Of a stretch of DNA of 64,000 nt, positions 17,291 to 64,000 are shown piece by piece (the stretch's first letter is position 1; each line of letters begins with the position of its first letter). This DNA is from Isoetes taiwanensis. Its lineage: Eukaryota; Streptophyta; Lycopodiopsida; Isoetales; Isoetaceae. The stretch spans positions 1,968,820 through 2,032,819 of the forward strand of contig JAJEKV010000017.1 in the NCBI GenBank assembly GCA_021234155.1, given 5' to 3'. Made by a program: the position numbers and the translations under genes. Under the pieces are notes generated by a model. That model was not told the origin of the DNA, did no database searches, and saw nothing but the letters and a program-made list of their open reading frames with translations.

Positions 17291-17940
17291 CATATTTGAC
17301 TATGTCATGTCAGAGATATCAAGGCAAATGAAAAAAAAAAAAAAAAAAAAAAAATCTATAATAATACACAATTGTTAATGCCAGGCATCTATCACTTAGT
17401 AATGGAGATGGTTGGACAAGAAAAAGAAGGAAGAAAGTTTGGAGGATTTAAAGAGAGGCCTTGATATATATCAATAGCTACTAGGAATGTGTGACAGGCA
17501 ATGCCGGGCATTACTCATGAGTAATGCCATGTGGAACGGGTAGACATAATAAAATTTGTAGGTGGAATTAAAGAGATGTAAACCTAATCGTGTCCATAGA
17601 TGTACTGAAATGCCAAGTGCGGACGGTTTAAGGATTAGGGAGGCTGGATATTAATTGTGGATGTCCGGAATGGGTAGAGAGAAACATAGCATGTGTGAAA
17701 TAGAATGGATAGATGATGGAGTATATAGCTAGGCTGGTATGGATTGCATAGAGTTTAGGGTACTAGTTATTGCTTGTGATGGTTTCAGGTTTTGTGGAGG
17801 ATAGCAGATTCAGTGCATAGTCAATTCTAGCAAATGTGTGTCCGAGGTATAAGGTGTGACTATATGAGCTTTTGATGTAATACCAAACATATGTAGGCAT
17901 ATGGGCTTGGTATATGCTCTTGATGTTAATTGGACTCACT
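17291..17940. other. Spacer with poly(A) run
   Basis: A run of about 24 A lies at 17331-17354. The rest is AT-rich with no gene seen. It separates two minus-strand LINE copies. Confidence 0.5.
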
Positions 17941-19070
17941 TTTTTTTTTTTTTTTTTTGGATGAACGTGGACCTTTATTACTTAAAAGAATACAAAGAGT
18001 ACATGGGGGACTCAAAACCCAGTGGAGAAGATATCCACTAGAGCAACACTACCCACCACATACATAACATAGAAAAGCAGAGAACACAGATCACCATGAG
18101 CACAAGTATTTGCTATGAGTAGGTGTGAATCTGAAGATATTGCTCCCAAATGACACTTTTGATATCATCCTTTAAGAAAGAACACTTGTACGCCTTCACA
18201 ATGCGACCACAGGGCATCGCTAAGCACTTGCGTGTCGAAAAAGAGGCTGTCCCTTGAAGATGAAGAGATTTAGTCTCTTCCAGGATGGACGAGATGATCC
18301 AAGCGGATGCTAAGTGGAAAGCCCTCTTTGCCAACTTGTCCCAAGAACTAGGATAGGCCCGACAATAGGACACATTGACTATTCAAGTCACAATGGAAAA
18401 GACTCAAAAGCCACCGCCAAGCAAGTCGAACATGGTGACACAAGAAAAAGCGATCTCGCAATTGTCTCATCCTCGTGTGCAAAGAGGGCGGATCACGCGA
18501 GACTTACGGGCGAAATCGATGAACAACGGTGTTTGCAGATGCGCATCTATGAGTGATCTGCCACTATAAAATTGATAGCTTAGGATGAAGCAATTTATCC
18601 CATACCCATCGCCAGACTGCTTTACGATGAGGCTCGGGGATAACTAAAGGCCACTTTGGCGATGGAGGCAACACCCCAGGTTGAAGCAGGACCACATACA
18701 TCGAGTGCACCAAGTGCTCCTCCTTAACACTGCCATGAACCACCCAGAGCTGGGGAGCCACGTCTTGTGGGTGTGGTGGAAGTGTAGCAGCTATTTTTTC
18801 CCAAATGGCCCGGTCCCACCGAAGGAGAAGGAACCTCAATTCGAACTCATTCCACGTCAACAATCTTGTCTCATTATACCATGCAGATACCATGAGCACA
18901 CCTGCTGCTCGCCACCGACGTTGCATCAATGGATGGACAGAAGAGACCAGAGGACAATCTGCCTGGCCGTCACCCAAAGGGATCCACCAACAACTGGTTG
19001 TAGGATCTGTGTGGGCCATTGGATGGAACTGAAACAAAGTGCGCACAGTCTCCCAAGCAGCTAGCAACCC
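17941..19070 (-). mobile_element. L1-like LINE 3' portion with poly(A) tail
   Basis: The left edge is an 18-base T run, which is the poly(A) tail read on the other strand. Reading minus-strand from 19067, a 167-codon frame (AWETVRTLFQFHPM, SCWWIPLGDGQ, RLLTWNEFELRFLLLRWDRAIW) matches the connection region after the reverse transcriptase in plant L1-type elements. Near 18490-18400 a zf-RVT-like finger appears in broken frames (PLCTREDETIARSLFLCHHVRLAW in pieces), as expected at the C-terminus. A last frame (18373-18113) has a WDKLAKRAFHLASAW stretch. The reverse transcriptase itself is missing (5' truncation). It belongs to a different lineage from the microsatellite-tailed LINEs on either side. 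Confidence 0.75.
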
Positions 19071-21087
19071 CTTGAGGAAAGGAGATGCATTTGCCTACAT
19101 AGTATCTTACAATAGCCATGTTGGAATCGATAGGATCATAATATGCAGAAGAACAAAGTGCATGCCAAATTCTGCACTCAATGCACCCTCTGCAATTGTT
19201 CTATTGCGCATTCTGCAATGCTTTTCCAACTTGCGCCTGCAAATTTAATAATATCATAATCTCAACGCAAAATCAATCACTTTAATACAAGTAGCAAGTT
19301 CATTATTGGAAAGAATGAATTTCAGAGCATGGATGATGTGTGCCATTGTGACTCACAAACTCATACAATAATACATTACAATATGTGGAGATAAGAATTC
19401 TTACAACCTCACTGGGATGTTAATTATATTGGAGGGTATGTAATCCATCTTTCTTCTAGACTCAAGCCATGCAATAAAGCTGCAACCAAAATTGTACACA
19501 ATGGGAACACCTTTTGCTTTCACATGAGTTTGTAGCTATAGCAAATAAAGTCCCAATAAGGTACCTGAATTCTACAGAGGATAACAATATTTGTGCTCAT
19601 CAATCCAAAATCAACCCGCCATGCTCACTCGTTTGAATAACTTAAAGCTCCATCATTACTGGAACTTTAAACTTCGACCTGCAGAAGTACTGTTAACCAA
19701 GTTATACATATCAAATAGATCTGCAACATACTAGCAATCATACTGAGCAACAAATATTATGCTACTTTTCCATAAACATTTGTACACAAATAGGTTGACT
19801 AAGATATCAAGGTTTAGCTATCTATTTCATTCTTACCTAAAGTTCTAGTTGCCAGAAGTTAAAACTGGTGATCTAGATCCTTGTATTAAGCCATAGCCAT
19901 ATCTACCTCTCCACCAATAAACGAAGGAAAGAATTAAGAAAAACATGCATGGACATTCATGTGCAATGACAAATATTAAACCGCAAAAATGAGGAACATC
20001 TTGTTGTTTAAGGTCTAATCTAAGAACTACCTGCTTTTCAAATGTGAAGCTACATATGTTCTAAAGTGTCTTTGCTAGGTATTTCAGATGGTTTCCTTGT
20101 ATAGTTCTGGGGTTGAGTTCTAGTGAGTTATTAGCAACCATCAAACGGGCACAGAGCTATAAGGTGGAACAGAAGTGAAGCAGGAATGAGAAAGAAAGCA
20201 TGGATCTTTGTTTTTAGGTAGTCTTTCTAGTTAGATCTTCTCATCAAATGATTTTTTCCCCTCCTCTTGCTCTTTCTTGCTAGCAGAAAAGTTTACGGAT
20301 ATTTTCTTGAAAGGAGCTAGAGAAGTTCTTGATTTATAATTCTATAGTTTTAAAACAGGATGTCAAATTATTTGAGATTGCCGACTAGGGATTTGTTTGT
20401 ATCCAGGAAGATGCTTCTATATCAAGACTAGATATCATGTCAAACTTTAGAGGGGAGTTTTGGTGGCTAGTTGTGTGTCTAGTTTATTGTAGGTTGGTTG
20501 AATGGCACACAATGACAATGCTGCAACTCCTTTTAATCTCATATTTGATAGTAAAGTTGCAGAATTTGATCATAGTTTGAAGCATATTGCCTTTTTCTTA
20601 ACATTGCAGGAAATTGTTTAGGTTACTCTTTATATTTTTTCTCTTCATTTCTAATTTTGCAAGAGGTTTCTTAGAGCATTCAAGATTGTATGCAGTTTAT
20701 GGAAAATGGGAATGTGACTCTGGTCGTGTTCTATTTAATTGAGATGATGTTGATACTGTAGCATTAGTAGTTGAAAGAGACTTATGAGTACTATAACTGC
20801 AGAAAATAATTTAAATCCGTATGGGATCCTCTATACTTAAATCATATCTGGTCCATGAGGGATCTTTGTATTGTAATTCTTCCAATCTAATCAATACAAA
20901 AAGTTCTTATCTTCCACAAAAGACACACACAAAAAAGGGGGGAAGAAAAACTTATATACAACTTTAGTTGTAGTAGCAAATCTTATAGCATATTTCTTGT
21001 CGATCTGGTTGTCATATTTGATTCTTGATAGGCTTTATTTTTGTCTCTCTTTCCTTTTTGAAAAAAGTAAGTCAAAATACAATTTCA
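19071..21087. other. No recognisable gene
   Basis: Two kilobases of AT-rich sequence with no frame, repeat or signal I can support. Confidence 0.4.
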
Positions 21088-21106
21088 TCTCCAATTTCTT
21101 AAGAGA

Positions 21107-22054
21107 ATAGAATAGAATAGAATATGATTTTATCGTCCACGGAGACCAACTGGCCTATGGGACCCAAGTACAAAGAGAGAGCAGCAGGCGTATTACTACC
21201 AGGATTAAAAAACCCCCGCCCCGAAGGGTTTTCGGGGGAAAAACCTTAGTAGCAATAAGGATCTTTGACATCTTGCCTGATTATATACATAATCACAAAT
21301 GCAAATGAGGTTAATGTCGGACGGGGGGCATAAGCGAGTCCAGCGTATCCATTACCTCCGAGTCACGATCCCAACAAGCCTACAGAGGTCGTGCCCAGTG
21401 GCTCATGCAAGGCCTTTGATGGGGCACAACTAGCAGAAACATCTGAGCCGGGATATGCTCGTCATGGCTGAGGCACGGAGGCGTGACTTTCATCCTCAAT
21501 GGCGCCACTGGTGGCGGCGTGGCCGGACTCTGTCCTCACGCGGCTCCGAATCCATCTCCCCGTCTCAATGCGGAGGTGGTGTGCACTTTGTCTGCGAATG
21601 GAAGCAATCACCTGGCAGCTTTTTCATGGGTAGATGGGTGCGCAGGGTGAGTGGTGTGGGCCCCTCGTGAGCATGGGATTAACTGCTTGTCGATAATTTG
21701 CCACCTTGACATGTGGACAGGGGCCTCTGCATCCCAAAGCTTGGCCATGAAGCAAGCATCAGAAATCTTTGCTTCAAGGCGGCCCAGGTTCCTTCGGTGT
21801 ATGCACCGGGTCCACATCACTGCGTGCTTTGCACATTCCATAGGAGAACCACTGGGCTTGCTTGTCTTTCCAGCAGGCTTTGAGTCGCTGCGGGCCCATC
21901 GCCACTGCCAAAGCAAGGTTGGGCAGCCGGGCTTCATCCATAGCCACCACCTTCTGGAAGTAAATAGAATAGAATGGAATAGAATATAATAGAATAGATT
22001 GGAATAGAATAGAATAGAATAGAATGGTTTTTATCGTCCATGGAGACCAATCAG
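21107..22054 (-). mobile_element. LINE copy A3: composite insertion inside one target-site duplication
   Basis: The segment is bounded by identical 19-bp copies of TCTCCAATTTCTTAAGAGA (21088-21106 and 22055-22073), a convincing target-site duplication. Inside, from left to right, are an (AATAG)n tail and the family 3' terminus (21126-21144), about 800 bp of the C-terminal and 3' untranslated part of the LINE (minus strand, frames broken), a second (AATAG/GAATA) run at 21963-22024, and then a second copy of the terminus (about 22025-22054), only about 30 bp long. There is no reverse transcriptase core, so both parts are 5'-truncated. Two 3' ends within one duplication point to a dimeric or template-switched insertion. 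Confidence 0.85.
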
Positions 22055-22089
22055 TCTCCAATTTCTTAAGAGAGAGGAAAGCGTTAGAT

Positions 22090-22191
22090 AGAATGGAATA
22101 GAATAGAATAGAATAGAATAGAATAGAATAGAATAGAATAGAATAGAATAGAATAGAATAGAATAGAATAGAATAGAATATAATAGAATGG
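22090..22191. repeat. (GAATA)n microsatellite, about 20 units
   Basis: Almost perfect five-base tandem repeat forming the 3' tail of LINE copy A2, which begins immediately to its right. It yields long spurious frames of FYSIL repeats on the minus strand. Confidence 0.95.
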
Positions 22192-23862
22192 TTTTTATCG
22201 TCCATGGAGACCAATCAGCCTACGGGAACGAAGGAGCACAACAGACTTATTACTGTCCTGAATAAAAAAAACACTGCCCCGAAGGGTTTTCGAGGGAAAA
22301 ATCCTGGCATTAATAAGAATGTTGTCAAACTGTATAAATATACATCATAAAATATATATGTATATCAGGTGAGTGTCCGAGGACATAGTTGATCCCCCAT
22401 AGCCATGACCTCCTAAAAGTATGATCCTAGCATCTGTACTGAAGCCGTGCTCAATATCACATGTAATTGGCTGGTTGGGCCTGACCAACGCAGCATAATC
22501 CTCCATAGCTCCTACTTGGCAGTATTGACAAATCCTGTCCTAGCTCGTGGCTCCCCAATCCATCTGCTTATCTCAATTCGGAGACATGTGCACCTACGTG
22601 AATCGAGACAACAAGTATATGTCTTTTCATATGCAAATGGGTATGCAGGTAGCGTTGCGGGCCCCATTTCAATATGGGGTTTATGTGGCGCTGGTAATAT
22701 GATGTCTTGACCTGCTCAAGGGTGCTGGCATCCCATTGCTTTAAGCTATAGCGAGCTACTTCTGTTTGCATCTGTATGTTGTACTCCTCCACATTCTATC
22801 TGGCTAGTCATTGAGCTCTCTTTTTCCTCCAAAGCGGGCCTTTAGGCACTGCGGCTCCATTACCACGGTATAAACCAAGTTAGGGAGATTAGCATCCCAT
22901 ATTGACCACCTTTTGAAAGAGACGATTTGGTGATCAAGGGCCACCCTCTAAAGAGGGAAGAAACCGCATGCAATAGAATTTGATGTGGGACCGTGCAGTT
23001 CAACCCCAGTGCCCATGCTAAGAAGGCTTTTTGCACCTGCTCCAAGTCATTACAGGTAGCGAGGGATGGACAACACTGGACCCCAAACTTCGACTCCATA
23101 TAAAAGGATGGGCTCCAATAGGACCTTGAACAGGTGCGACTGATGGGCCAATCATATAGCGACACTCTGTGGCTATTGTTGTGCATTGCATACTGTGCCA
23201 TCCAGCCTGTTGTCGTTCGTAGCCGGATGGATGTGTCCCAGTGCATAGAAGAAGGAAGCTCCTCTCCCAAAATTTTGTAGGTGGGTGCCACTTTCATATT
23301 TTGCCCCGATAACTAAAGGAGGGAGCCCTTGGCTTATGCAAGAATGATATGGGGACCTCCTTAGTCTTTGCCAGGTTGGCACGCATGTTACTCGCATGGC
23401 AGAATATGTTCAGAACATCGAGATGGCGCTGCATATTTGTTGAGGTGCAGGCAAGGAGGTCCACATCATCAGCATATATTAGCTGCCTGGAGATTTGGTG
23501 CAAAGGTTGAGCTTCGCCGCCCCCATCGTCAGCAAGCCCAAACAGTGTCAGAGAGAGAGGGCATCCCTGGCAGACATCGATATTGCTATCGAATGGTCGG
23601 CCTGTCGACTGCAACCACCCTGAGAATATTTCATACTTGTGCACTGCATTCTGCAGGTCCGGAGGGACCTCCAGATGTCGCAATCTTGCCCATAACTTCT
23701 CTCGACACACAATGTCAAAGGCATTGGCGGAGTCAATGAAGCAACAAAGCAGGTTTTGCTGATGGTTTATGCAATCTTTGACCAGAGTCTGCACCATGGA
23801 AATGTGATCAATGGTTGAGTGCCGGGGCCTGAATCCCGCCTGCATGAGGGCCCACATCTATG
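22192..23862 (-). mobile_element. LINE copy A2, reverse transcriptase with YADD, broken
   Basis: Minus-strand copy of the same family as A1. The 187-codon frame 23857-23294 covers most of the palm: FRPRHSTIDHI, CCFIDSANAFDIVCREKLWARL, DVCQGCPLSLTLFGL (a PLSxxLF-type motif), LIYADDVDLLA and MRANLAKTKEV. A second frame (23297-22860) continues with the region after the palm (WDTSIRLRTTTGWMAQYAMHN, and further right VQKAFLAWALGLNCTVPHQILL). The 3' terminus is at 22190-22212 and the tail is (GAATA)n. The 5' end is cut off where the long terminal repeat begins at 23863, so the LTR element probably landed in this LINE. The two frames overlap out of phase, so the copy is inactive. Confidence 0.9.
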
Positions 23863-25458
23863 TGGTGATGTTCCACTAAAATATAAGGGATAAATAAGCA
23901 TATTTTAAGGCCACATCACCATACAAGCCTACTATGGTAGCCTTGTACACCTCAAGTGGAGTAGGGAAGCATGGCCAAGTTATATTACATAACTTTGCCA
24001 ACCTTAGGATGGAACCATTTCCACATGGCCCCATCCTATTGGGCAACCCGCCACACGGTCACACCCTAGCATGACATGGCAACCCTAACATACTTATTTC
24101 CAAACTCTAACCCTAAGCCACTTTCTTGCTCCTACTGTCTTGGAATCCTAATTCGCCCGAAACTCCGTTTCAAAAACCTTTTGTTGCAGCATAGTACAGA
24201 TCAACAACCCCAGGACTGTTGTCAGAAGGAGTGGGAGCTACCTCGAATCGCTTGCAAGATATGGAGACACCAGGAGCGGATGGAAATTTTTTCGGAGTAG
24301 GTATTTGGAGTATTTCCTAGGTAGATCATCTGGAAGTTAGGACTCCAGATGAACTAGGACTCCAGTAGAACCCGTCTAAAACCCTTAGTTCGGATCTTAA
24401 ACCCTAATCAATGAACCCTAACTGTAAGTTAGATGTATGCGATTATGATTAGATGTTATTCTCATTATTTATCATGTTATGTAGATATATGATGTTGGTT
24501 GATCATGTTTGCACCTCTTGTGTTGGAAAGGGGGGTAGAGACCTAGTAGCCTTGTTTAGATGATGCTTCTAGTTTAGACCCTTTAGTTCCTATTATATGT
24601 GGTTTGTGCATAGAGCCCACCAGGCTATGTAAGTTATGGAGTGACTGAGCACTATATAACACGGGGTCATTGACAAGATAGAGAGGGTCTGTGTTGAGCG
24701 CGATTATTGGGGACCCGGTACGAGCTACGCATATAACCGGTCACTTCGTGAGGGTTGGGTATGGGTCCGACACTTCCTGGATCAATAGTGTCGCCCTGAT
24801 CCTCAAGAGTTGTAGAGTTTGGCCTAGCTCCTGTTTCGGAAAGTACAGTTGGGGACGAACGTGTGTCACCACGTTCTCTAGCCGCCTATCGATGCTCCGA
24901 GAAGGAGGTTCCTCTCTTTCTATCTCATCAAACCGGGGAGATGTAACCCGGATTAGCCTCATACGGTGATACCTTGAGGTCGCATATCTGGCAGGTTACA
25001 GTCACCTCAGAGCTTGGTCTAGCCCATCTGCAAAGTATGCACAGGAGGGGCCGATGGAGTGGTCAACCCTAACCATTGTCTGTAGCCAGTCCTGCCACTG
25101 CTATATCTCGGTCTGCTCTACCTTGAGACCCAGTCGTCAGTCTACTCTCCCTATGCATCTGAGCCTGGATAGGAGCTTGTACGTTTTACGATGTGTTGAT
25201 GTCTATGATGGATGGATGTGCTACCCTTCGTGGTAGTTGATTATGTTGTATTGTTTTGCTAGTCTTGATGTTGTAGTATGCTTTTGCTGTTATAGGAGTC
25301 CATAAGGGACAGGCACACAAGCCACCTTCATGTCTCCCTACCCGCGTCTTGGCCATCCCAAGAATGGGAAAGACGGAGGACCCATATAGATGATGTTGGA
25401 TGGGTATTTCCTATAGAGTATACAGCGGAGCGTCATATACTTTGTGGGGAGTGTCACA
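23863..25458 (+). mobile_element. Long terminal repeat, copy 1
   Basis: This block of about 1.6 kb is homologous along its length to 26238-27867, begins TGGTGATGTTCC, ends GTGTCACA and is followed one base later by a primer binding site. The TG...CA ends and imperfect terminal inversion (TGTGATG/CGTCACA) are those of an LTR. Shared interior landmarks include GCCTTGTACACC, CATTTCCACA, GGCAACCC/GGCACCC, GAACCCTAA and TACCCTTCG. The copies differ by many substitutions and indels, so the insertion is old. Confidence 0.85.
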
Positions 25459-25459
25459 A

Positions 25460-25473
25460 TGGTATCAGAGCAA
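25460..25473 (+). promoter_or_regulatory. Primer binding site, initiator tRNA-Met
   Basis: TGGTATCAGAGCAA directly follows LTR 1. TGGTATCAGAGC is the classical plant retrotransposon primer site, complementary to the 3' end of initiator methionine tRNA. Confidence 0.9.
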
Positions 25474-26237
25474 TATTCTTGGTTGATCAAGGGCTAGCAC
25501 TGGCCATAACCCTAATTTGGTAGATTAACTGGCCTAGTAAGGTAAAAATTCCAACTTTGAACCTCGATAGTGGGAGATTTTTTTTTCCCAAGTAGTAGGG
25601 TCATAGAATTAGGCTAGGTTATAGACTCAAGAGAAAATGAAGTCAAATGAAGATTTAGTAAAACTGGAGTGAAAATTATCATTAACACCAAATTCCACAT
25701 AGAAAGGGTCGAAGAATCGTCCAAATCGGAGAAATTGGTGAAATATGGTGCAAATTCATAATTAAACATCCAAGAACCATTAGAAATTTAAAAATTCAAA
25801 AAACTATAAGGGGATCACTATTAATAACAGTGACTCATTAAAAATGGTACTAATGGAAATGGAATATTCCTTTGCATGTGCAAGCATTTTTTCCTTTTTA
25901 AACACTAATTTAGCCTCATCTTCCTAATTCGCCCTAAACCTACTTTCTTAGGCCCTAAGAAGATCTCTAGCCTAAAGTAATTTTCAGTTTTTCTCGGAAG
26001 ATTAGAAGCCCCAAAAGATATGGCGCAAAGAAGATCCCGAAGCTATGAGTGGGGGTGAGCAAGCATTTCGACTAGGAAGATTAGAAGCCCCATACCATGC
26101 CCAAGCATGGCGTAAGTGGAAATTACCACCTTAGAAGCCATTTCAAGAAGATCCCTATGGGCGAGCACCTCCCATTGGACCAAAATATAGTGAGGGTGAC
26201 GAGCCCAACAGTTCAGACTCCTCTGACGAGTCCTATC
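25474..26237 (+). mobile_element. Short internal region between the two LTRs
   Basis: This is only about 780 bp. Its first half aligns with the leader after LTR 2 (TTCTTGGTTGA, GCACTG, GGAATATTCC, and GATATGGC at the start codon), but the frame starting near 26020 (MAQRRSRSYEWG) stops at once. No polypurine tract precedes LTR 2. The gag and pol genes have been lost or cut off by the second element. Confidence 0.7.
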
Positions 26238-27867
26238 TGTGATGTTCCCCAGAAATATATGCCATAATTGTAGGCCTCATCACCGTACAAGCCTATCATT
26301 ATAGCCTTGTACACCATAGTAAGTGGAAAAAGGGAGATAGCTAATTTATTTATATAACTTAGCCAACCTTAGGCTTAAGGCCATTTCCACAAGACCTCAA
26401 CCTATTGGGCACCCGCCACATGGAAGCATCCCATTGGAGCCACGTGGCAGTGGCATGGAACCCTAACCTATAAATATCCTAACCCTAACCCTAGGCCACT
26501 TTTTGGCTCCACCTACCTTGTGACCTGTTCTTCGCTCAGAACTCCGTTCCGAACACCGTTTGTTGCGGCATAGCTCAAATCGACAGCCCTAAGGCAATGC
26601 GCCCATCAAAAGGAGGAGGAATCACTCGACTCATCGTCAAGTCATGGAGACCTCAGGAGTTGGAGGAATTCGTCTGGAGCAGGTATTCCTTGTAGCTTCA
26701 TAGGTAGATCATCTGGAACCTAGGATTCCAGATGAACTAGTATCTTATCTTATTAGTAGAGCCTTCCTAGAACCCTTAGTCTAGGTTTGGAACCCTAATC
26801 AATGAACCCTAAGTGTAAGTTAGATGCATGTGATTAGGATTAGATATATCTTCATTATTGATCATATTATGTTGATGTATGATGTTGGTTGATCTATGTT
26901 TTCACCTCTTATGTATTGAGAAGGGGGGTAGAGACCTAGTGGCTATTATCTAGATAATGCTTCTAGTTTAGACCCTTAGTTCCTATTATTATGTGGTCTG
27001 TGCATAGGAACCCATCTAGCTACGGGGGTTATGGAGTGACTTAGCACTACACAATGAGGCTAGTGGCAAAGTGGATGGGGGTCCCTGTTGAGCGCAACTA
27101 CTGGGGACCCATTGTGGGCTAGGTCTATAGTCGGTCACTTCATGTGGGCCGGGTATGGATCTGACACTTCCTGGGTCAATGATGTCGCCCTGATCCTCAG
27201 GAGTTGCATGTGCTGGCCTGGCTCTTATTTTTGGGAGTTCAGTCAGGGATGAATCGTGTGTCGCCACGATTCTCTAGCCGCCCATGGAACCACTAGACCT
27301 CGGGAAGGGAACATGGAACTCTTCCTACCTCATTAGACCAAAAAGATACAACTTGGAGTAGTCTCGATGGGTGATACCATGAGACTATGTTCCGGTAGGT
27401 TATAGTCATGCCAGAGCCCAATCTAGCCAGTCTGCAAAGTATGCACAGGAGGGGCGGATGGAGTGGTCAACCCGAGCCATTGTCTATAGCCAGCCCGCCA
27501 TTTTTATATCTCGGTCTGCTCTATCTTGTAGCCCAGTCGTCAGTCTACCTCCTTACGAGCCTGAGCCTGGGTAGGAGCTCCCATGTTTTATGGCATGCTG
27601 ATGTCTTTGTTGGATCTATGGATGTATGGATGTGCTACCCTTCGAGGTAGTTAGATGTATTGGTATTGTTAGTGCTGACATTATGTTATGCTTCCGCTGT
27701 ATAGGAGCCCATAGGCAAAGGGTGTCAAGGCACCTCCGTGTCCCCTTCCCGTACTAGGAGTATCTTGATTGCGGGATAGATGGAGGGCCCATGCGACCAG
27801 AGGGCTGGATGGGGGATTTCCTATGAGATGTATGACTGGCATCGTATATGTAGTAGAGAGCGTCACA
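26238..27867 (+). mobile_element. Long terminal repeat, copy 2
   Basis: Starts TGTGATGTTCCCC and ends GAGCGTCACA, giving a perfect-ended LTR of about 1.63 kb homologous to LTR 1. It is itself followed by a primer binding site and a gag-like frame, so it is the 5' LTR of a second element (or the shared LTR of a tandem), not a terminal 3' LTR. No third LTR was seen within the window. Confidence 0.85.
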
Positions 27868-27868
27868 A

Positions 27869-27882
27869 TGGTATCAGAGCCA
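27869..27882 (+). promoter_or_regulatory. Primer binding site, initiator tRNA-Met
   Basis: TGGTATCAGAGCCA, a perfect 14-base match to the usual plant initiator-tRNA-Met site, begins one base after the end of LTR 2. Confidence 0.95.
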
Positions 27883-28136
27883 TGTTCTTGGTTGACCAAG
27901 AACTAGCACTGACCATATTTCTGGCTAGGTAATAAAGTAATAACTATATATATAATAGGTATATTTAGTAGGGAGGGCAAATTAATAGGGCTATTAATGG
28001 TAAGGGAATATTCCCAGTCCTAAGAGCATCTTTTCGTTTTTAAATATAATTTTACAGTCCCACACTCGCTAACTCACCCCAAACCTCTCTTTCTTGATTT
28101 TCAGCTTAAGCTAATCCATTTCCTTAACCGTAAGAT

Positions 28137-43547: not shown

Positions 43548-44875
43548 TTACATTTCATCCTCATCAGAAAGAACTTCGGGTAAATTCTGTAAAATTTTCT
43601 CCTCATCTAAAGGATCCAGCCTATATACAGTCCTGTTTTTACGTTTAGTTGGTGGCACGTGAAGTCTGATTGCACATAATACTATGCCTAAGGCGTCTTT
43701 ATTGCAAAGATCATAGCTGATGGTTGATCTTGCGCCCTTCTTGTAATACATACCTTCTATAAAGCATCGGCAATGAGAACACAAGTATTAAGAAATAAAT
43801 AAAATGAGATAGATTCACCTACTTCAATGCTTTAAATTGTCTCTTCATGGACTCATGCTCCATTGAGTTGGAAGTCTTTCTCCACTATCCATTTTGGTTT
43901 TGCGCACCTCAGAATCCAAAATTCAGCACCCTCATCATTCCCTTTCGGAGCAACGACAGTAAAATTATCACCAACTCTAAGTGCCTCTGCTAACATCGTG
44001 GGATTGGAGGAGAACATGGTTTTACGGTCCTCCTCAATGTCAGCATGCACATTGGAGGATGGTACAATAATTTGAAGTTTTCAATCATCAACATAGTGCT
44101 TGTTCACACAACTGTCCCATATGCCATCCAAGCAATAGTTGCAGAAGCATGAAAGTTCCCTCATGTGCAACTGCAATAGAGATTCAGAATTCAATGCATG
44201 TACACAATGGATTTGCCTAGTGTTCAAAATCCTTTCTGCACCCCATGCTTTCTTTCTATCTATATCCTCCACCTTGACTTCCCAAAAGAACCTTTTTATA
44301 TTTTTCCTCTTGCTGATTTCAGATGTGTTCATCCACTCGGATGTTCCACAAATAAACATCTTTTCAGCAACTTCTACCACCATGAGCATTATCCAATTTT
44401 ATGTTGCTGTATTTCAATTGCAGTTGTCTTAACCATCTCTTCAACTCAACAGCCTTGCCATCGTGTTCACCTTTCCCATGGTTAGAACCAAAAAAATTCC
44501 ACATCATATAGACTTCATTGTCGTTTGTGTACTTAGCCACAAAGTAAAATGGTCTAGAAGCCTTGAATTGAGATGCTGCACCATCTGAAAACACATAACG
44601 TCTCTTTAACACCCTTCCTTTCTGCTCCAGATATTTGTGGTGCTTCATGAAGCAGTGTTGCACGAACAAAGTATCGTGTTCCCTATCATCTGATATATAG
44701 TAATGTGTTTGATAATCTCATCTGCCACTGAGTCATACTGATATATTTTTTGAATCAAAATAGTAATCTGGTTATTGACCCAGCGCATCGACTGCATCTC
44801 CTCTTGTTCCTTGAATGTATAGTTCGCCCTCCCGCAATATGAAACAAATTGTGCAAACTTAATGGGGACGAACAT
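43548..44875 (-). pseudogene. Transposase-like protein with DG-x4-FK and HGKG-x2-DG motifs, broken
   Basis: Minus strand, right to left. The 44875-44645 frame gives an N-terminal helical part (VSYCGRANYTFKEQEEMQS). A shift leads into 44669-44364 with ISDDREHDTLFVQH, RRYVFSDGAASQFKASRPFYFVAKYT and WNFFGSNHGKGEHDGKAV. One more frame change leads to 44389-43853 with FICGTSEW, MRELSCFCNYCLDGIWDSC and HYVDD, where a TGA stands for the expected Trp, then LRVGDNFTVVAPKG. The last piece (43784-43548) reads YYKKGARSTISYD and ends in an acidic tail. The SDG...QFK and HGKG-DG blocks followed by a Cys-rich SCFCxxC block are familiar from uncharacterised transposon-derived proteins of plants and animals, so a DDE-like nuclease is my inference. 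Two frameshifts and a stop show decay. A short intron may lie near 43775-43815. Confidence 0.55.
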
Positions 44876-45689
44876 TCATTGGATTATGAACATTCCTTAG
44901 GGAAATGGGGTACAAATGAATACTTTTCCAAACTAGAGGATATTTGTTTACAAAATCATAAATGGGGGATTGGCCAAAAAATATAAGAGGATATAACTTT
45001 ACAAAATCACAAAGGAGGGATTTGGCAGATACCCATATATTAAAAGCATTTTCATTTCCCATTTCTTATAAGAAAAAAGGGGATTTTTAGCTTTTCCTCG
45101 CGGGCATTTTGAGGAGGATGTGGGCATCATTTTTTTTTCTAGGCATGATTTTCATAATAGAAAAACCATTACAAGACCTCATTTCAGGCTCCACAATAGC
45201 TAGATAGGAAGGATCAAATGCATATTGTGTGATTGTTGGTGTCGATTCAAATGCACATGGGCATAATTTTTGGTGTGATTGTATATGGAAATAATTTATA
45301 TCATCTTCCATCGTTGGTTTGATTCCATTATTCAAGATAAACATTTTCAACTGATCCAACGAATCTTCGACGATGTAGTGCCTGATAACACTTGGACCAT
45401 GTTTTACAAAGGACCAATATGTTATAATATGTTGGTGCATTGAATGGTCACAAACAAAGACTTTGATACTTCACGAGAATACAATGGCATGATACAAATC
45501 CAATACTTCCTACAATTGTTTATGACTCCATGATATATCAACATTAGAAATTTTACATCTATACATACTCTCCTGAATGTGGTCATGTTAAATTCAAGTC
45601 TATTGTGTCTTATATTCAAATATAAATATGGCATCTATATACACGTTCTAGAAATGTCATCGTTGTCTTATTTACAAATAGAACTCAAT
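44876..45689 (-). other. Unrecognised minus-strand frames
   Basis: A 117-codon frame (45440-45087) and a 70-codon frame (45634-45422) are open on the minus strand, next to the transposase-like pseudogene. They show no known motif and may be its decayed upstream part or chance. Confidence 0.3.
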
Positions 45690-45781: not shown

Positions 45782-47156
45782 TTAAAATGCAGAGAAGGCT
45801 CCCATAAATCTGACTTTGAGGGCTCTAATGGAACTTTCCAAGAGAAGCTCATTGGATGCAAAGTAACTCTCATAAATATGCAAGCAACTTACTTGTCTTC
45901 TCTCTACGTCCTCCTTATTCATAGACCTAAGAGTGGGAACGATCCGGTGCATCTCCCCAGAAGGAAATTGCAACAAACATAGATGCCATTGTATTAAGGC
46001 ATCGAAAGGTTTCACATAATTATCTACTATGATAACAGGGATTACGCCTGCACTCAGTACCTCCAAAAGTCTATAAGAATTGGGTTGGATGCCTGCAGGA
46101 CAAAGACCAAAAGTAGTATTCATGAGCATCTTGAAGCTATAATTAGCATACACCTTTTCATCCTCATCACAAAAGGCACCCAAGGATGCATCTTTTCTTA
46201 TGTTCTCTTGGACTATAGGATGGCTACATGATGTAGCCACAATAATGTCCTTGCCATTATGCATTTCTCGAAATGAAGGCAAGCTTCTAAGTGTACCTTC
46301 TTCATTCCCCACATAGCGCAAACCTCTAAAAGTTAGGAAGTATTGCCTCTCAAATGGCTTAATGCTTTGTAGTTCTATAAATCTTAGATATGGTGGCAAA
46401 GGAAGACTAATATCAAATCCTGACCTATGTGTAGTCTCATGCAAATCTGAGGCCATGATTGATGCAAATCCAATCTTTTCGTCTGGTGGCCCTTTCATTC
46501 GCCATAGGTCTGCAAAAGTAATTAGTACGTGGTTCATACCTCCATTCCAAAATGGGGGTGCTAAGAGGTCAACCTTGCAAGCCCAAGAAGGACAATCTAA
46601 GAAGAAGAAGAAAAGGCAAGCCTTGTTGGGATCTGACGTGTGCCATTTTGTAGTATTGAACCCAAAGAAAGTAATGAGGTGGATGATATGGTGAATCATA
46701 ACTATAAACGAGCATCTCCTCCATGCCATCACAACGAGAGTAATTGAAGCAAGAGTCCATAGAGCAACGTGGAAACCTTGATGGGTAATGCCATACTTTA
46801 CCTTCTGCCCACCATGGTTCCTCTTTCACAACTTTTATACACCTCTACAACTTTTTTGTTCTTTCTTTCATGATCTCTTTCATTGTTTCATTACGCAATG
46901 ATTCCTTACATTCCTGAGATGAGAAACTACAATTCACCTTGTGATCTGCACTGGGCAATGAGTTGTTCAATTTGCAGTTGCAATCGCTGGGTCGAGATTG
47001 GAAGATGATTTGTTGTGAAGATCTCATGCCGATAGGCGAGTAGACTGATAGGGAATTGAAGAAGACAAATGTTATGATGCATACGAGCACCAGTATGGGC
47101 AAGATGTAAGAGCGGAAGGAAGGGCTCATTGTAGGTGATTGATGAAATTCAACCAT
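45782..47156 (-). pseudogene. EXT1-like exostosin glycosyltransferase, two lesions
   Basis: A minus-strand type II membrane protein of the GT47/exostosin family, whose members add sugars to cell-wall or matrix glycans in the Golgi. The N-terminal frame (47156-46845) has a short cytosolic stretch, a signal anchor (SYILPILVLVCIITFVFFNS) and a Ser/Asn-rich stem. It stops with TAG at 46845, but the same frame continues (RCSMDSCFNYSRCDGMEEMLVYSYDS), the conserved Cys-x3-SCF-x-YSRC start of the catalytic domain. A frameshift near 46650 leads into the 316-codon frame 46732-45782: TSDPNKACLFFFFLD, WNGGMNHVLITF, GFASIMASD, RSGFDISLPLPP, LTFRGLRYVGNEEG, HNGKDIIVATSCSH, NTTFGLCPAGIQPNSYRLLEVLSAGVIPVII and FDALIQW. 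These fit EXT1-type more than the common angiosperm arabinosyl- or galactosyltransferase types. With no introns it could be a retrocopy. The two lesions could also be assembly errors. Confidence 0.85.
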
Positions 47157-55870: not shown

Positions 55871-57975
55871 CAGTATCTTTGTTGCCGTTGCCGTTTACGA
55901 ATTTAGTCCCTCAGAAATTTTGTTGTGGAACTACAATGGAAATGTAGCCATGGCTTCAAAGCTGCGCCCATGCATCGAAAAACGTAGACGATTCCAAAAA
56001 TCAATTTTAGTCTGCATTTTTTTTCCCAGAAAGTAGATATACGACGGCAAGAACGGCTTCATAGCCTAGCCAGCGGAAACTAGCAGTATGCAGCTCGAGC
56101 TCATAATATAGATCCTTCTGGCACACAAAGGAGTTGTTTGCCAGTTTTGGAGAAAAAGGATGTCAAAATCTTGAGAAGAGCACAAAATTGTATTCATATG
56201 CATCAGTCTACATCTCTGGAAGGGCGATGACACCTAGGAGGGGAGCCAATGTTTCAATTAAGGACAGGCCAAACTCAAAGCAAACTTGCGCAGACCAAGA
56301 AGCTAGCTTGATGCTATGGTGGCGGCGTTATGCAAGCAAGCATGTGAAGCCGCTACATGCTACTACAAACGGGGTAAATGATCTCCACGTCTTCCCGGGA
56401 AATACAGCCGGAAAATTCATTCCAAAAAGTCACTAATTCCAAATTTTTTTTTTGCTAGTAATCTTATATATAGGAAAGAAATTTTGTTTTTTTTGCTAGT
56501 AATCTTATATATAGGAAAGATAAGTATTATAGGACGATTCTTTTAGAATATTACTGATTGATGCTGTATTAAAAAATTGACGCCTCAGCATTTTTTGTGC
56601 GCAACACTTCTATTCAAAGTTTTATGACACGTATCAGATTAAGATAAGGTTTAGGCCTTCTGGTTTGTGAGGTGTGGCTATGGCGACAGGATTCCTACGC
56701 GGCGCCAAGACGCAACCATTGGGTCCGCCATGCCCAACTGCTCAGATTGAGAAACCCAAAACCCACAAAGAATTTTGCAAAAATTAAGTAGCAGGAAGGA
56801 ATTCAATGATAATCCACAGAAAGATCTCACATGTTTAACCATCCCAAAAACTAATCGACGAAGAATTCAAGCACAGAAAGGAATAATCCAAAGACAAGGA
56901 ATTTTATTGGAAAGCTTTGGTCATACAAATGTCTGACAAAAAAAAGAGCAAAACTAGATTGTCGTTGAACATAAAAGAAGGCACGATAAGAATTTGAGGA
57001 AAAAAGAAGGAGCGCCGTATTCCTACTCCGAGAAGTGGTAAACCCGGGCAGGAATTCGTGGTAAGCTCGGCCATGGATCCGGTAGCCATCGCCTCATGCA
57101 TCCGAGACCAGGATGGCCCATTTCATGTCCAGCATGCACCAATGCATGCATCCGTGAGCCCATCCTTGGATTCGATGGATGGGGGCTAAGATAGATAGAC
57201 TGCACAACTATACCTGCCAATCTGTACCGGTCTGATCTAATTCCCTTCCACTTTTAATTTTCACCGCTTCCAAATTGCATCTACGCATTCAATCGCTACT
57301 CATGTATTCAACCGCTTCTTTCCCACACAATTCAAAACCCAACACACTCCACTTCAATGACCATTCGAAATTGGCCTTTGCCTGAGCCCCTTTTTCGCTT
57401 TTCTCAAGTCGTAAGGCGGGGCCGGAGTGCAAGAACTTCTGGACCTCCCAAGAACTCGCTATCCAAGCTTGAAGGAGCGCCTTCGCCATGACTTGAAGGT
57501 CAATGGAGGCAGATCATCGTCCGATAGGGTGGACCCCGATGTCGCCTGTGTGAGTTCGAATCCTTAAACCTTACTCCAAAACCTTAGCATTTGAAGAAAA
57601 TTTAATACTCATTCCTCCTTTGACATGATCTGCGGGCGTAGGCTTAGCTTGATCCGCGATTCAAGCAGCCCCCCTCCCCGGTTCATTTACAAGAGATGCT
57701 CGATTTGCAATTGGAGTTGCATCCAAGGCCAAATGCAATTGAGCCGCTCCCCGCATCAATTTTCCTTTGATGATGAGGAGCAATCTTTAATTCGTGTACA
57801 CATGTTTCATCCCAACAACTAGGGTTGCGACTTTATAAAAGGCGAGGAGAACCGGCCCAGTGGTCCCATACAAATTTTTACAAGCGTGATTCTCGGTACA
57901 GGAAACCAGGGCAGCTCAAGAGATTGGCAGATGAGAATTCCTACCTAAGCTTTGTCAAGTAAGTAATTTTCCTGC
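55871..57975. other. No recognisable gene; 41-bp tandem duplication
   Basis: A T-run plus GCTAGTAATCTTATATATAGG unit is doubled at about 56440-56522. The 100-codon frame at 56134-56436 has no known motif. The left end of the MULE that follows may lie in the right part of this stretch but no terminal inverted repeat was identified. Confidence 0.4.
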
Positions 57976-59722
57976 ATGACCACGAAAAATGAATCTTGCC
58001 AATGTAAGTTACAACTTGCCTACAATTCAGCTAACCTTGGCTGTTATGTGACAGCTATTGGTGCACCTTTGGGCCACAAGATCAGAGGGACCATCCTCCT
58101 CCACTTGCAAACCAATCACGCAGGAGGAAAACCAATTTTAAACGGGGATGCTTGTGCCACTTCCAAGCAAAGCAGTTGTACCTAAAGCATGAGTGCACCA
58201 AGTTAACTTTCTATGAGATGAACCATATTGATAGCAAGGAGCAGGTTTGCCATGGTAGTGGAGATTCAACATGCAAGAACACAAGGCTTAAGCTTGCACC
58301 TCGTTTGTCCAAGGAGAAGAAGGATTGGGCTAAGGATTTGATACAACAAAATCATTCAAATTCAACAGTCATGAGCAAGCACGAAAGAGCATTGGAGCTT
58401 ACAAAAGCAAATTAATCCAGATAGACCAAGACATAGAGATGAATTTCTTGCCATGGATGACCTTCACAACTTATCTCGCAAGGTTGCTAGATCCACTTGG
58501 ATGTTGCATCGAGATGTTGCTTTGTCAGAATGTGGGTTTCTCTTCATCCTGAGAGCGTGTTTATGTATCAAGAGGGCAGGCCCTTTACTTTGGGTATAAT
58601 GACTCCATTCTAGCTGAAAACTCTTTTGGAGCATGGAAAAGGTGAGGCAATTGCCATGGACTCCACTTTCAAAACCAATGACCATTGCTACAGTTTGTAC
58701 ACATGGTTGCTTTATGACAGCCATGGGAATGGTGTTCCAGTAGCTTGGGTTCTCATATCTAGTCAAGAGGAAGAGGAGTCCGACCATGGCTTGTGGCCAT
58801 GAACACATCCATAATAATGATCCCACTTGGTCCCCTTCTTGCTTCATTGTGGATGATGCCCAGGCCGAGATCAATGCTTTGAGGGATGTTTGGCCCATGT
58901 CACGTATCCAATTGTGCTTGTGGCATGTGAGATGAAACTGGTTGAAGATGTTGGTGAAGCGGGTTAAAGATAAGAAGCGCAGGGCCCAAATGTTCAAGGA
59001 ATTAGGAGATATCATGTATGGTATTCATGTTGATGGGGATGGTAGATATGGGCAAGACTACATAGACTCATGTAAGGAAGAGGGATTAAGACGCTTGGAA
59101 GAGTTCAAGGAAAGGCACAAGGTCTACAAGAAAGTTGTGAAATACATGAGCAAGGTGTGGACAAAGAACATTACTTCCTGGATTGTGCTACTCGGATGTA
59201 TCCCCATGCAAACCAAGAGACAAATGCAAGCATAGAGTCATATCATGCCACTATGAAGAGGAGGCTTGGTCTCTCCAAGCATTCATTGAGAGGGCGCAGG
59301 ATTGATTGGTTGCTTTACATGTTGACATGCATAATGGAGACGCATATATATCCTTTGATAGGTTCAAGAAAGACTATGATTTTAAGATCAACCGCAGACA
59401 GGAACAAGTTATCGAGACAGCAATCATTGGAGCAAAAAAGATTCCTGATGCAGCAGTGAGGTGGCTAGACTACCAACAAGGAAGGGCTGAAGTTTGGAGC
59501 CAAAACATGGATGCTTGGGATGAGAATAGAGAGGCCCTTCCATACATGGTAGTTGTGGCAAATGAGAATTGGGCTTGCTGCGATTGCCCATGGGGTATGA
59601 AGGGTAACATGTGCAAGCATCAAATTAAAGTGATTCAAATGATGGGCAGCTATAGGGATGAAGACATATTGAGAGTGTGTGGAACTCTTTACGGTTCCCA
59701 AGCTGGTGGTTTCAAAACTTGA
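57976..59722 (+). pseudogene. Mutator-like (MULE) transposase with SWIM zinc finger, broken
   Basis: The N-terminal part (57976-58415, two frames) is Cys/Lys-rich (ESCQCKLQLAYNSANLGC, then DSTCKNTRLKLAPRLSKEKKDW), like the DNA-binding region of MULE transposases. The DDE core follows. The first catalytic Asp is in EAIAMDSTFKTND (58659-58661), the second in CFIVDDAQAEINALRDVWP (58852-58854), followed by LCLWHVR and a stop where the next residue should be. The Glu is in ETNASIESYHATMKRRLG (59235-59237). The C-terminal SWIM finger CDCPWGMKGNMCKH lies at about 59576-59617. All catalytic residues survive, but the parts lie in at least three frames with several stops, so the enzyme is dead as read. 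A convergent Ulp1-type protease gene lies 2.3 kb away on the other side of a minisatellite. Confidence 0.88.
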
Positions 59723-60558
59723 GATCTATTGCAGAGGATTATGAGGGTGGATGAGTGTAGCGATGACGTGCGGCCTTCTACTTTGACCTCAACAAGCCTT
59801 ATTGATGTGGAGTTGGAGCCTCATGTGGAGAAGTGCTTCGCTTGACCCTACACGTAGACATGTTGGAGAGTATAGATGCTAGCCTTCATAACATAAGGGA
59901 TACATTAAGTAGCAACCCTCACATCATTCGTGGAAGTTTATTTCCTTCTTCGAGAGCTCACCCAAAAGTTAGAGAATTTGAAGTCCTCTCTTTGCTCAAA
60001 GAGGTGTTGCACCTTGCATGCCAACAACAAAGGACTTCAATGGGAGCACCATAGCTAGGCCAATTCCTTTCATAGAATGCCATAAGAGGAAGAAGAAAGT
60101 GGTGGGGATACCGTGGTTTGCACGCGGAATGTGCACGACACCTTGAAGAGTAAATTTTTCTTAATGCTTGACTTGTGGATCTTCTATTTTATGAGATACC
60201 TTACTTGGAGTTTGCTTTAATCCTTCACTTGTGGATGTTCTACAATAAACTTCTACTATTATACTTGGATTTTGCTTAGTCCACTTAACCACTAAACTAG
60301 GCTGTCCGTGTTAACCATTGGAGATGTCCAGGTTAACCACCTTGGTTACACATTTTTACCACTAGACTTAGATGTCTAAGCACTCCCTCAAATAAGAAGA
60401 AACCAAGTGTAAATTTGAAAAAAACAATACATTATGAGAAACCTTAGACCATTAGACTATGAAAAAACAACGAGTCAATCTGAACCATAGGACTTCACCC
60501 GAACAACTCTCTGTATTCCTCTCGAGCTCGACTCACGGTTTCTAGTGTGAAGTCCTAG
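59723..60558 (+). other. Transposase C-terminal tail and spacer
   Basis: A 73-codon frame (59833-60054; MLESIDASLHNIRDTLSSNP, REFEVLSLLKEVLHLAC) may be a shifted continuation of the transposase C-terminus. Near 60310-60380, phrases such as GTTAACCA and GATGTC already resemble the minisatellite units that follow. Confidence 0.4.
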
Positions 60559-61365
60559 ACATGTAAGTCTAGTGGTAAACCTAGACATGTAAGTCTAGTG
60601 GTAAACCTAGACATGCAACTCTAGTGGTAAACCTCGACATCCATGTAAAGTGGTTAACCTAGACATGCAACTCTAGTGGTAAACCTGGACATGTAAGTCT
60701 AGTGCTAAACCTGGACATGTAAGTGTAGTGGTAAACCTAGACATGTAAGTCTAGTGGTAAACCTAGACATGCAACTCTAGTGGTAAACCTGGACATCAAT
60801 GTGAAGTGGTTAACCTAGACATGTAACTCTAGTGGTAAACCTGGACATGCAACTCTAGTGCTAAACCTGGACATGTAAGTGTAGTGGTAAACCTAGACAT
60901 GTGAGTGACATGTAAGTCTAGTGGTAAACCTAGACATGCAACTCTAGTGGTAAACATGGACATCCATGTAAAGTGGTTAACCTAGACATGCAACTCTAGT
61001 GGTAAACGTGGACATGTAAGTCTAGTGGTAAACCTAGACATGTAAGTCTAGTGGTAAACCTAGACATGCAACTCTAGTGGTAAACCTGGACATCCATGTA
61101 AAGTGGTTAACCTAGACATGCAACTCTAGTGGTAAACCTGGACATGCAACTCTAGTGGTAAACCTAGACATGTAAGTCTAGTGGTAAACCTAGACATGCA
61201 ACTCTAGTGGTAAACCTGGACATCCATGTAAAGTGGTTAACCTAGACATGCAACTCTAGTGGTAAACCTAGACATGTAAGTCTAGTGGTAAACCTAGACA
61301 TGCAACTCTAGTGGTAAACCTGGACATCCATGTAAAGTGGTTAACCTAGACAAGTAAGTCTAGTG
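60559..61365. repeat. 26-bp minisatellite with higher-order structure, about 31 units
   Basis: Three unit types, all 26 bp: A (ACATGTAAGTCTAGTGG...), B (ACATGCAACTCTAGTGG...) and C (ACATCCATGTAAAGTGG...). Order is not random: C always follows a B and is usually followed by B, giving repeated A-B-C-B blocks of 104 bp. Unit A with the preceding CCTAG forms a short hairpin (CTAGAC-ATGTAA-GTCTAG). One unit is truncated near 60900. The array lies between the MULE transposase and the convergent protease gene. Confidence 0.95.
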
Positions 61366-61620
61366 GTCTAGTGTTTACAAGATATATTTACATGATGTTT
61401 AGAAATATATACTTGATATGTGCACATGATGTTTACTTTATGTTTACAGGATATGTTTACTTTATGTTTACAAGATATGTTTACATGATGTGTAGAACTA
61501 TACTTTATTATCTTACTTATTATAATTTTACATGATGTGTAGAACTTAATATGTTTACATTATGTTTGGAATTTTATGTTTACATGATATGTTTGCACGA
61601 TATGTTCAAATCAAGCCAAA
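61366..61620. repeat. AT-rich degenerate repeat (TTTACATGATATG phrases)
   Basis: Phrases such as ATGTTTACATGAT, GTTTACTTTATG and GTTTACAAGATATG recur about ten times with no fixed period. It follows directly on the 26-bp array. Confidence 0.7.
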
Positions 61621-61984
61621 AGGACATCAGCTTTTCATATAAAAGGCACCGAAACCGATACAAATACAAAGGCACCCTGGCACGATACAAAGGCCTGATA
61701 CAAACTTTCTATCAAGAACGTAAAACCGTATTTTCGGATAATCTGTTTTTAGAGCGAAATTTTCGATTATTGTTCTCATTCAACCTTGTCTTTGGAGCTG
61801 GAGTCTTCCTTGGCGTTTGACTGTCACTATAGCCCGTGCGGTTTACCTAGCATAAAGGAAAAGGACTTCCCCGCAATTGGCCATCAATAAATGGTAAACC
61901 ATTTTTTGGTTACCGAAAGGAGAGCGGAATGCAAGGTCAATTTGGACCCCATAAACAATTGTTAACAAAACAATATATGACTTT

Positions 61985-64000
61985 TTACTTGCCTTCTCGA
62001 TAGGGTTCCTCGGCCTTCTTCAAAATGAAATCCTGGAGAAAATACTTGGCATACAATATAGTGTAGATGCCACAATCAGATCCATTGTCTTCTTTGGAGA
62101 CATAGCACACGAAGAAGAGGACATCTGCACCAAAGTGCCATTTAAGCGGACCATGACTCGTGAACTTTCTTGAGAACACTAAAGCAAATCAAAAGAATTT
62201 CAGATTGTGATGACTAAACCAATACACAAATGGAATAACACAAATGACCCGACTTGATGGCAAAGATTTTCAAGGTTGAATGGTAGCCACTAACACACGT
62301 CAAAGTGGAGCAACGAGGGTGTGTTCGTCCCAAGAGCTTTGCAGATCTCGACATCATGGCAGAATACATACAAACTCCAATGGCCACTACCGTGTGCAAA
62401 AATCAGTGCTTGAGGGTAAAAGAAAACACACTAATGGGAAATAGAAATGGTCAACTTACCTTGACATACCCAAATACCAAAATATTTCTTCTATTAGATC
62501 TTAAATCCTTCATTTGAATCTCGCTCTTCTTCTTACCTTCAATGGAGCTGGTGGGGAGTGGGAGGCGACTTCTCGAAGAGGTGATCATGTTTGCGAGATA
62601 CTGAGACCCATCAAACTAGGATGTATCCAAAGAATGATGCTTCCTCTGATCAATGGGAATTGCATGGGATAGAATCCTGTTTTGAATGCATGAAAGCAAA
62701 TAAATCTGAATGCATATGAAATCTGAAAGCATATGAAATCTGAATGCCTATAAATCTGAAATGCATGAAATAAATCTGACTTACATTAAATATGCCCCAA
62801 CAGATTCCTCGTTCACCCATGATTTAAACATCTTTTCGGGATCGTCCCGTGTGCTGTCCGGCTCAAAGCACTCTCCTTTTGGTGCAGCTTCTATCATGAA
62901 TTCACCTCTCTTGACAGAACCCCAAACCCATATTGGGCTCTTGGCGTGAATGGGCCATTGGCAGTTGTATGAAAGCACAATTTTCTTCCCGGATTTAGGC
63001 CTCCCAGTCCCAGCCATGGTAAACAGGTCCTCTATCTGTTGTAAGGTGTGGAAATCAAGCTTATAGTCTGGACCTAGGCTCAGCATTGGTCTCATGGGGC
63101 GGACCCTCTCATTGGTTTTGATGGTGTAATCATATCGCATCTTCTATTACAAAGATGGGGCAGCGAGAGAGAGAAGGAAAAGGGGAATGCTGATTCTCAT
63201 GGCTAGTTGAAGGACACGGACTTACCCGGCTGCCCGAGGGCTCTGCACGATGGTGGCTCCTCCGGCACAAAACAGATCTGGAGGATTTCTTCATTTAGAT
63301 CTGCCATGACACGGTTAACTTGGGAATTCCACTCGGATTCTCTTGTCTGCTTGTCGTCGACAGCCAAGGGATTCCACTCTTGCTCTTCAACACCCTCCAA
63401 GCCATAAACAGTTGCTATAGTCTTCGTATATCTGGCAATTCTAGCCTCCCTGTCTTTTTCCCACTCAGCATTCCTCCTGGCAACATACTCTTCAAAGATA
63501 TTTCTTGGTCACCTCCTTATCTCCTATCAACCCCTTCATTTCCCTAACCCGTTCCCAACCAATCTTCATTGCATGGTCTTGGCACCTTCTCAAATATCTT
63601 CTCTGATTTCTCAAGTACCTGTACTCGGGGTCCATTCTGTAGGAAATATGATATCCCGAAAGGTCGCGGTTTGTCCTTCTCTTACTTTTGTTTGTTGTTG
63701 CACAGCGTCTACCAATTTGGTGCTCCTTCCACAACAACTGCAAGGTTATGCACATTGCTCATATGTGCCTGCAACCTCAACCTTTTTTCAGTGTCCCATA
63801 CACACCCGGGGACTAAGCAGCAATGCCTCTTTTTCTTGAGGGAGTAGTAGTATGCTTGCTTCATGTGATGCTCCTCTATTTCAGAGTCGTCATCACTGAA
63901 AGCTGCTTCAACCTCAGGAGGTAAACGCTCCCCTGTGCCTTCTTCCCCTTCTTCTGCCTGTGCTTTCTTGGCAGATCCCTTCTTTGCCCCCTTGGCAGAT
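61985..64000 (-). pseudogene. C2H2 finger plus Ulp1-type (C48) cysteine protease, broken, runs off the window
   Basis: Minus strand, right to left. From 64000, a Lys/Glu-rich entry (SAKGAKKGSAKKAQAEE) leads to a C2H2-like finger, CLVPGCVWDTEKRLRLQAHMSNVH (C-x4-C-x12-H-x4-H; described in parts: Cys pair in CLVPGC, His pair in HMSNVH), at about 63840-63765. Then come a basic helical part (63755-63492; DPEYRYLRNQRRYLRRCQDH), after a shift EEYVARRNAEWEKDREARI and WNPLAVDDKQ (to 63203), and a further frame 63140-62781 (GRPKSGKKIVLSYNCQWP, VWGSVKRGEFM). The protease core follows: GHWSLYVFCHDVE with the catalytic His at about 62380, LLHFDVC with the Asp at about 62300, and EDNGSDCGIYTILYAKYFLQD (in parts) with the Cys at 62072-62074. 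Ulp1 proteases cut SUMO-like tags. Frameshifts near 63720, 63500 and 62295 suggest decay; some gaps may be introns. The gene start is outside the window. Confidence 0.75.

Follow-up and report, generated by a model that had tools for sequence, protein, structure and literature searches.

Mutator-like elements (MULEs) that carry a ULP (Ulp1-type) domain are known from flowering plants. In the Kaonashi elements (KI-MULEs) the ULP domain lies in reverse orientation to mudrA, and in grapevine MULEs, both with and without terminal inverted repeats (TIRs), ULP was described on the downstream side of the transposase and in either orientation (PMC2528002; papers are cited here from excerpts of their text unless the main text is named). 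The capture of ULP by non-TIR MULEs has been dated to the separation of monocots and eudicots (PMC13317346). The same study describes KIU, a VANC gene carrying an Ulp1 domain, which lifts silencing and acts on motifs in the noncoding DNA of related elements, and treats the precise function of ULP domains in plant transposons as unsettled (PMC13317346). In our study we analyzed a stretch of DNA of 64,000 nucleotides, here called the window, whose right end had been proposed from the letters alone to hold a ULP-carrying MULE of the Kaonashi type. Two coding relics are found there, a MULE transposase gene on the plus strand and an Ulp1-type protease gene on the minus strand. They face each other across a 26-bp tandem array, and both are decayed. 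This is a degraded and probably single ULP-carrying MULE, of a kind already known from flowering plants.

Two convergent gene relics and the array between them

The MULE transposase relic lies on the plus strand at about 57801-60145, near the window end. Read through its frame changes, it matched the MULE family PF10551 (E 6.2e-17, 62.3 bits) and the RNaseH-like domain of ZSWIM1-3, PF21056 (E 2.3e-8). In single frames without read-through, the VDDAQ part matched PF10551 above the cut-off of 27.6 bits (E 1.4e-6, 29.1 bits) and the DSTF part below it (E 7.3e-6, 26.8 bits). The reading frame changes five times across six coding blocks (frames 2-0-2-0-2-1), and the three single frames of the core hold 24, 28 and 22 stops in 525 codons each. 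Because of the five frame changes and two in-frame stops, we regard the gene, judging from its sequence, as a once real gene that has become a pseudogene, provided that the indels do not stem from errors of assembly. The start at position 57976 given in the sequence-only reading is too far to the right, since an upstream exon and a 96-nt intron extend the transposase leftwards; position 57801 is the starting point of the open-frame test for this exon and not a mapped start codon. Matches of the transposase among PDB sequences were limited to three ribosomal proteins (E 0.12 to 0.5) and were taken as chance. The features of this gene are the following:

57801-57958, plus strand: probable N-terminal exon; spliced to 58055 it gives one frame open over 57801-58412
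57959-58054, plus strand: intron of 96 nt, GTAAGT...ACAG (GT-AG)
58055-59719, plus strand: transposase body of six frame blocks with two in-frame stops; Pfam match to MULE
58143-58412, 58411-58536 and 58539-58799, plus strand: blocks in frames 2, 0 and 2
58795-59172, 59166-59327 and 59339-59719, plus strand: blocks in frames 0, 2 and 1
58611-58613 and 58933-58935, plus strand: in-frame stops
58659-58661, plus strand: putative first catalytic Asp, in DSTF (58659-58670), its role taken from the MULE motif
58852-58857, plus strand: the two Asp codons of VDD (58849-58857), one of them presumably the second catalytic Asp
59235-59237, plus strand: putative catalytic Glu, in NASIES (59223-59240), assigned by the MULE motif
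59576-59620, plus strand: SWIM-type zinc finger, CxC..CxH; PF04434 below cut-off
59857-60145, plus strand: probable C-terminal tail in further frames (one block at 59857-60039); no family match

The ULP gene relic runs on the minus strand from 64000 to about 61988 and consists of seven blocks with two plain frameshifts. Its motifs GHW, HFD and NGSDCGIY, with His, Asp and Cys, follow each other in the Ulp1 order. A composite of 184 residues found SENP7 as its best match among PDB sequences (whole-sequence E 3.3e-4), and six of the seven sequences matched up to E 5 were SENP/Ulp1 proteins. Similar results were obtained with a composite of 105 residues (six of nine matches SENP/Ulp1), and the reversed 184-residue composite, our control, had no match in the PDB. 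Single minus-strand frames gave no Pfam match up to E 5, the ULP part none in NCBIfam, and read-through composites of the gene outside the protease part none in Pfam. The C2H2 finger that had been claimed for the protease is present as CX4CX12HX4H at 63819-63748. An intact ULP gene with ordinary introns was considered and dropped, as two of the six junctions between blocks are frameshifts too short for introns and one has no in-frame GT-AG solution; the other three have at least one. Since two junctions are frameshifts and one lacks such a solution, the gene is, as read from its blocks, broken like the transposase. It is composed as follows:

63748-64000, minus strand: block A with the single finger, running off the window; frameshift before block B; no Pfam match
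63224-63725, minus strand: blocks B and C, charged region, with a frameshift at about 63500
62784-63143, minus strand: block D, 120 aa open, a domain of no recognised family ending in WVNEESVGAYLM; no Pfam match; predicted structure not used (mean predicted local distance difference test score 38)
62460-62615, minus strand: block E (FDGSQYL...FGYVK), whose end aligns weakly with SENP7
62299-62403, minus strand: block F with GHW (His 62382-62380) and HFD (Asp 62301-62299)
61988-62176, minus strand: block G with SDCGIY (Cys 62074-62072) and Glu at the Gln position (62092-62090)

The satellite array that had been placed in the middle lies between the two genes and contains 31 units. Twelve of the 26 columns are invariant; five of these 12 fall within the AGTG-T stretch, by which the units were anchored, and are invariant by construction. 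A variant unit makes up 6 of the 31 and returns every four to six units, and Tandem Repeats Finder reported a period of 130 bp at 60907-61352. Two inverted units head the array, so that an inverted junction lies on its left side. The unit at 60285 scored 14.4, slightly above the maxima of 10 simulated windows (0 to 13.1), and the next best score elsewhere in the window, 6.6, lay inside their range. To the right follows a degenerate repeat, which was compared with the 26-bp unit: shuffles as good as the repeat numbered 4 of 200 in reverse and 173 of 200 in forward orientation. At most, this suggests an inverted relic of the array. The repeats lie at these positions:

60285-60310 and 60355-60380, minus strand: two inverted copies of the 26-bp unit, left of the array
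60554-61367, plus strand: tandem array, 31 units of 26 bp
61372-61606, no strand assigned: A+T-rich degenerate repeat with a period of about 24-27

One element or two neighbours

We favour, with moderate confidence, the reading that the transposase, the convergent ULP gene and the array would together be what is left of a single, now decayed Mutator-like element with two genes, because the layout matches that of ULP-MULEs, in which the transposase is followed downstream by ULP in reverse. Further points in its favour are that both genes are broken and that antisense second ORFs have been given for several MULE groups (PMC6446971). The facing layout proposed in the sequence-only reading fits the KI-MULEs and the grapevine elements as described in PMC2528002; membership in a single element is still something that we infer, as is the accessory role of the ULP protein. 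In this element the left DDE/SWIM transposase gene would, given its family membership, move the element by cut-and-paste and cut at the element ends. The second gene, convergent to it, would encode a C2H2-finger protein with an Ulp1-type (SUMO protease-like) domain, and the 3' space common to both genes would carry the 26-bp array. The C2H2-ULP protein would serve as an accessory factor, most plausibly one that acts on the chromatin silencing of the element.

Several results weigh against this reading. No TIRs above chance were detected in the flanks within the window, as the sequence-only reading had already stated, and the right end lies beyond it. In a local alignment of 55.0-58.03 kb with 60.1-64.0 kb the best inverted match scored 24, and 20 shuffles scored 18-24. 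Moreover, when all sequence left of 58.03 kb was compared by blastn with 59.73-64 kb, the best inverted match had E 0.060 and the best direct match, of 18 bp at 53090, E 0.011; none was taken as an element end. A search for inverted repeats over 52-64 kb yielded 99 pairs, and the longest 25 of these 99 all lie inside the array region. No target duplication of 8-11 bp and no second copy supports a single element either. The opposite case, named in advance, of inverted repeats enclosing only one of the genes was looked for as well, and around the transposase alone none was found above chance; this speaks for one element, but weakly, since some MULEs lack TIRs and TIRs can decay. The lack of terminal repeats neither proves nor refutes one element, because the element would end to the right of the window and because MULEs of the non-TIR kind are known.

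Some details of the two genes add further points against it. The transposase had been described with all three DDE residues and a SWIM finger, and the protease with His, Asp and Cys. All three DDE positions, the CxC..CxH pattern and the motifs GHW, HFD and SDCG in order were recovered; neither gene is open, and two domains stay below their Pfam cut-offs. The SWIM finger reached E 0.013 in a single frame and E 0.0039 read through (PF04434, 17.1 bits against 19.6). For Peptidase_C48 (PF02902) four composites, each a read-through of the broken ULP gene, gave E 0.019-0.087 and 13.1-15.3 bits against 20.7. Within the SENP7 match no single stretch does better than E 0.038, and splicing at several block junctions of the ULP gene is tentative. 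Moreover, the position six residues before Cys, which we take to be that of the catalytic Gln in Ulp1/C48 peptidases, reads Glu and is aligned with the Gln of SENP7.

Within the 64-kb window tblastn detected only the loci themselves and no other copy of the transposase or of ULP. Relatives were also sought by three protein scans and one scan with the 26-bp unit in viral contigs, by one scan in prokaryote genome contigs and with the transposase DNA in plasmids, and none was confirmed in these collections, whose scope does not extend to the distribution in plants. The protein scans of the viral and prokaryote collections returned 2, 4, 2 and 9 pattern matches, of which none encodes a relative.

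Two unrelated remnants may also lie side by side here, namely a MULE that ends before or within the repeats and a ULP transposon of another superfamily, CACTA or other, that runs off to the right. We consider this possible but doubtful. ULP domains also occur in CACTA elements (PMC2528002), a paper on Ginger transposons mentions ulp1 21 times (PMC2836005), and a boundary could hide in the repeat-rich region at 60.28-61.61 kb. Furthermore, none of the features tested links the transposase with the ULP gene. However, the arrangement agrees, by analogy, with that of known ULP-MULEs, no inverted repeats above chance were found between the flanks, and no CACTA transposase domain was matched in the three plus frames of 57900-60160 or in the three minus frames of 61849-64000, the DNA further right being beyond the window.

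It is improbable that the protease is a host gene, or a retained former host gene, of the ULP2-like type beside a decayed MULE. Its best PDB match, SENP7, is a ULP2-type protease. Besides, SPF-like ULP2 proteases were described as restricted to bryophytes, lycophytes and ferns (PMC11371177). Nevertheless, a needed host gene would be intact, whereas this one has at least two frameshifts and lacks the Gln, and it also has an additional finger and, towards its N-terminus, a long charged region. That the frameshifts are assembly errors in an intact and possibly active element is very improbable indeed: the changes of frame are small, and indels of this sort generally arise in assemblies from error-prone long reads, but a 347-aa GT47 frame stays open in the same window (45785-46825), which speaks against a high indel rate, in-frame stops stand beside the frame changes, and the Gln position is substituted.

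Other features of the window

Ten open reading frames (ORFs) elsewhere in the window were scanned with Pfam, of which four had no match. The six matches comprise a casein kinase II beta exon, GT47, a NIF-phosphatase-like frame, a Ty3-type gag and two reverse transcriptases, one of them just under the cut-off. The casein kinase II beta exon (12852-13250, minus strand, E 2.4e-16) is likely part of a host gene, and judged by it the host is probably a land plant. An Rfam scan of the window gave no match. At 6940-7388 an inverted repeat with 90-nt arms, 92% complementary and separated by 269 nt, has the look of a miniature inverted-repeat transposable element or a foldback element. Two related copies of a reverse transcriptase like that of long interspersed nuclear elements occupy 15364-23857 on the minus strand, with segments about 6.8-6.9 kb apart that are 77-88% alike, and an AATAG-type satellite lies within this region (21963-22189). 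Two copies of one stretch lie within 24364-27917 at a distance of about 2.4 kb, and their listed segments (families D6, D12, D14, D17, D18 and D20) are 76-85% alike. Finally, minus-strand ORFs at 44367-45470 with SDGAASQFK and FFGSNHGKGEHDGK had no Pfam match up to E 0.1; by impression, they may be parts of a DDE-type transposon protein.

A possible anti-silencing factor and comparison with known systems

The convergent gene might further represent a sequence-specific, independently built anti-silencing factor, which combines a C2H2 finger for DNA recognition with ULP and is aimed at the 26-bp array of its own element. We rate this as rather improbable. The idea arises because a C2H2-ULP protein and a central array fit the VANC/KIU pattern, an analogy and not functional evidence. 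VANC proteins target short motifs that are repeated in tandem within noncoding DNA of the elements (PMC5735166, PMC10398659). The ULP domain would strip SUMO from silencing proteins or, given the Glu in place of Gln, would only bind them. Against such a role, KI proteins were described as unlikely to act towards SUMO (PMC6117577), the main texts of the two VANC papers (PMC5735166, PMC10398659) do not contain the term 'ulp', and the array may be a minisatellite that has nothing to do with the ULP gene. In the Phantom elements of aphids a minisatellite follows the transposase ORF (PMC6446971); the main text of this survey names neither ULP nor protease.

No report of ULP-bearing MULEs outside flowering plants was recognisable from titles and abstract openings, a scope that excludes most of the subscription literature. 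The notion of a deep case, raised in the sequence-only reading, has no support from the window. In a host other than a flowering plant, ULP would have been captured earlier than dated in PMC13317346, or independently. If the anti-silencing factor is real, the VANC/KIU strategy would have arisen a second time, perhaps outside flowering plants. Moreover, the idea of anti-silencing could be tested directly on a ULP-MULE that has a compact repeat array and, as a candidate for DNA binding, a finger of its own.

Among known systems, maize MuDR also has two convergent genes, mudrA and mudrB. However, mudrB is not known to be a protease, and no TIR was found in the window. VANDAL elements with VANC are described as similarly combining a MULE, a second gene and tandem repeats of short motifs in noncoding DNA; compared by eye, the 26-bp unit is unlike the VANC motifs in the excerpts. 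With ULP-bearing CACTA elements the window shares a plant ULP domain on a transposon (PMC2528002), whereas its transposase is that of a MULE and not Tnp2. The ULP-MULEs of melon, rice and grapevine (MuDR-like, Jittery-like) resemble the window in that those of grapevine have ULP downstream of the transposase; the finger on the protease and the central array found here are not mentioned for them in the excerpted text (PMC2528002). Compared with the Kaonashi MULEs and KIU of Arabidopsis, the protease has a C2H2 finger, no VANC-type region was recognised and the genes are decayed. The Kaonashi label is unsupported for the element in the window, which shares with them an Ulp1-type gene in reverse to a MULE transposase (PMC2528002, PMC13317346, PMC6117577).

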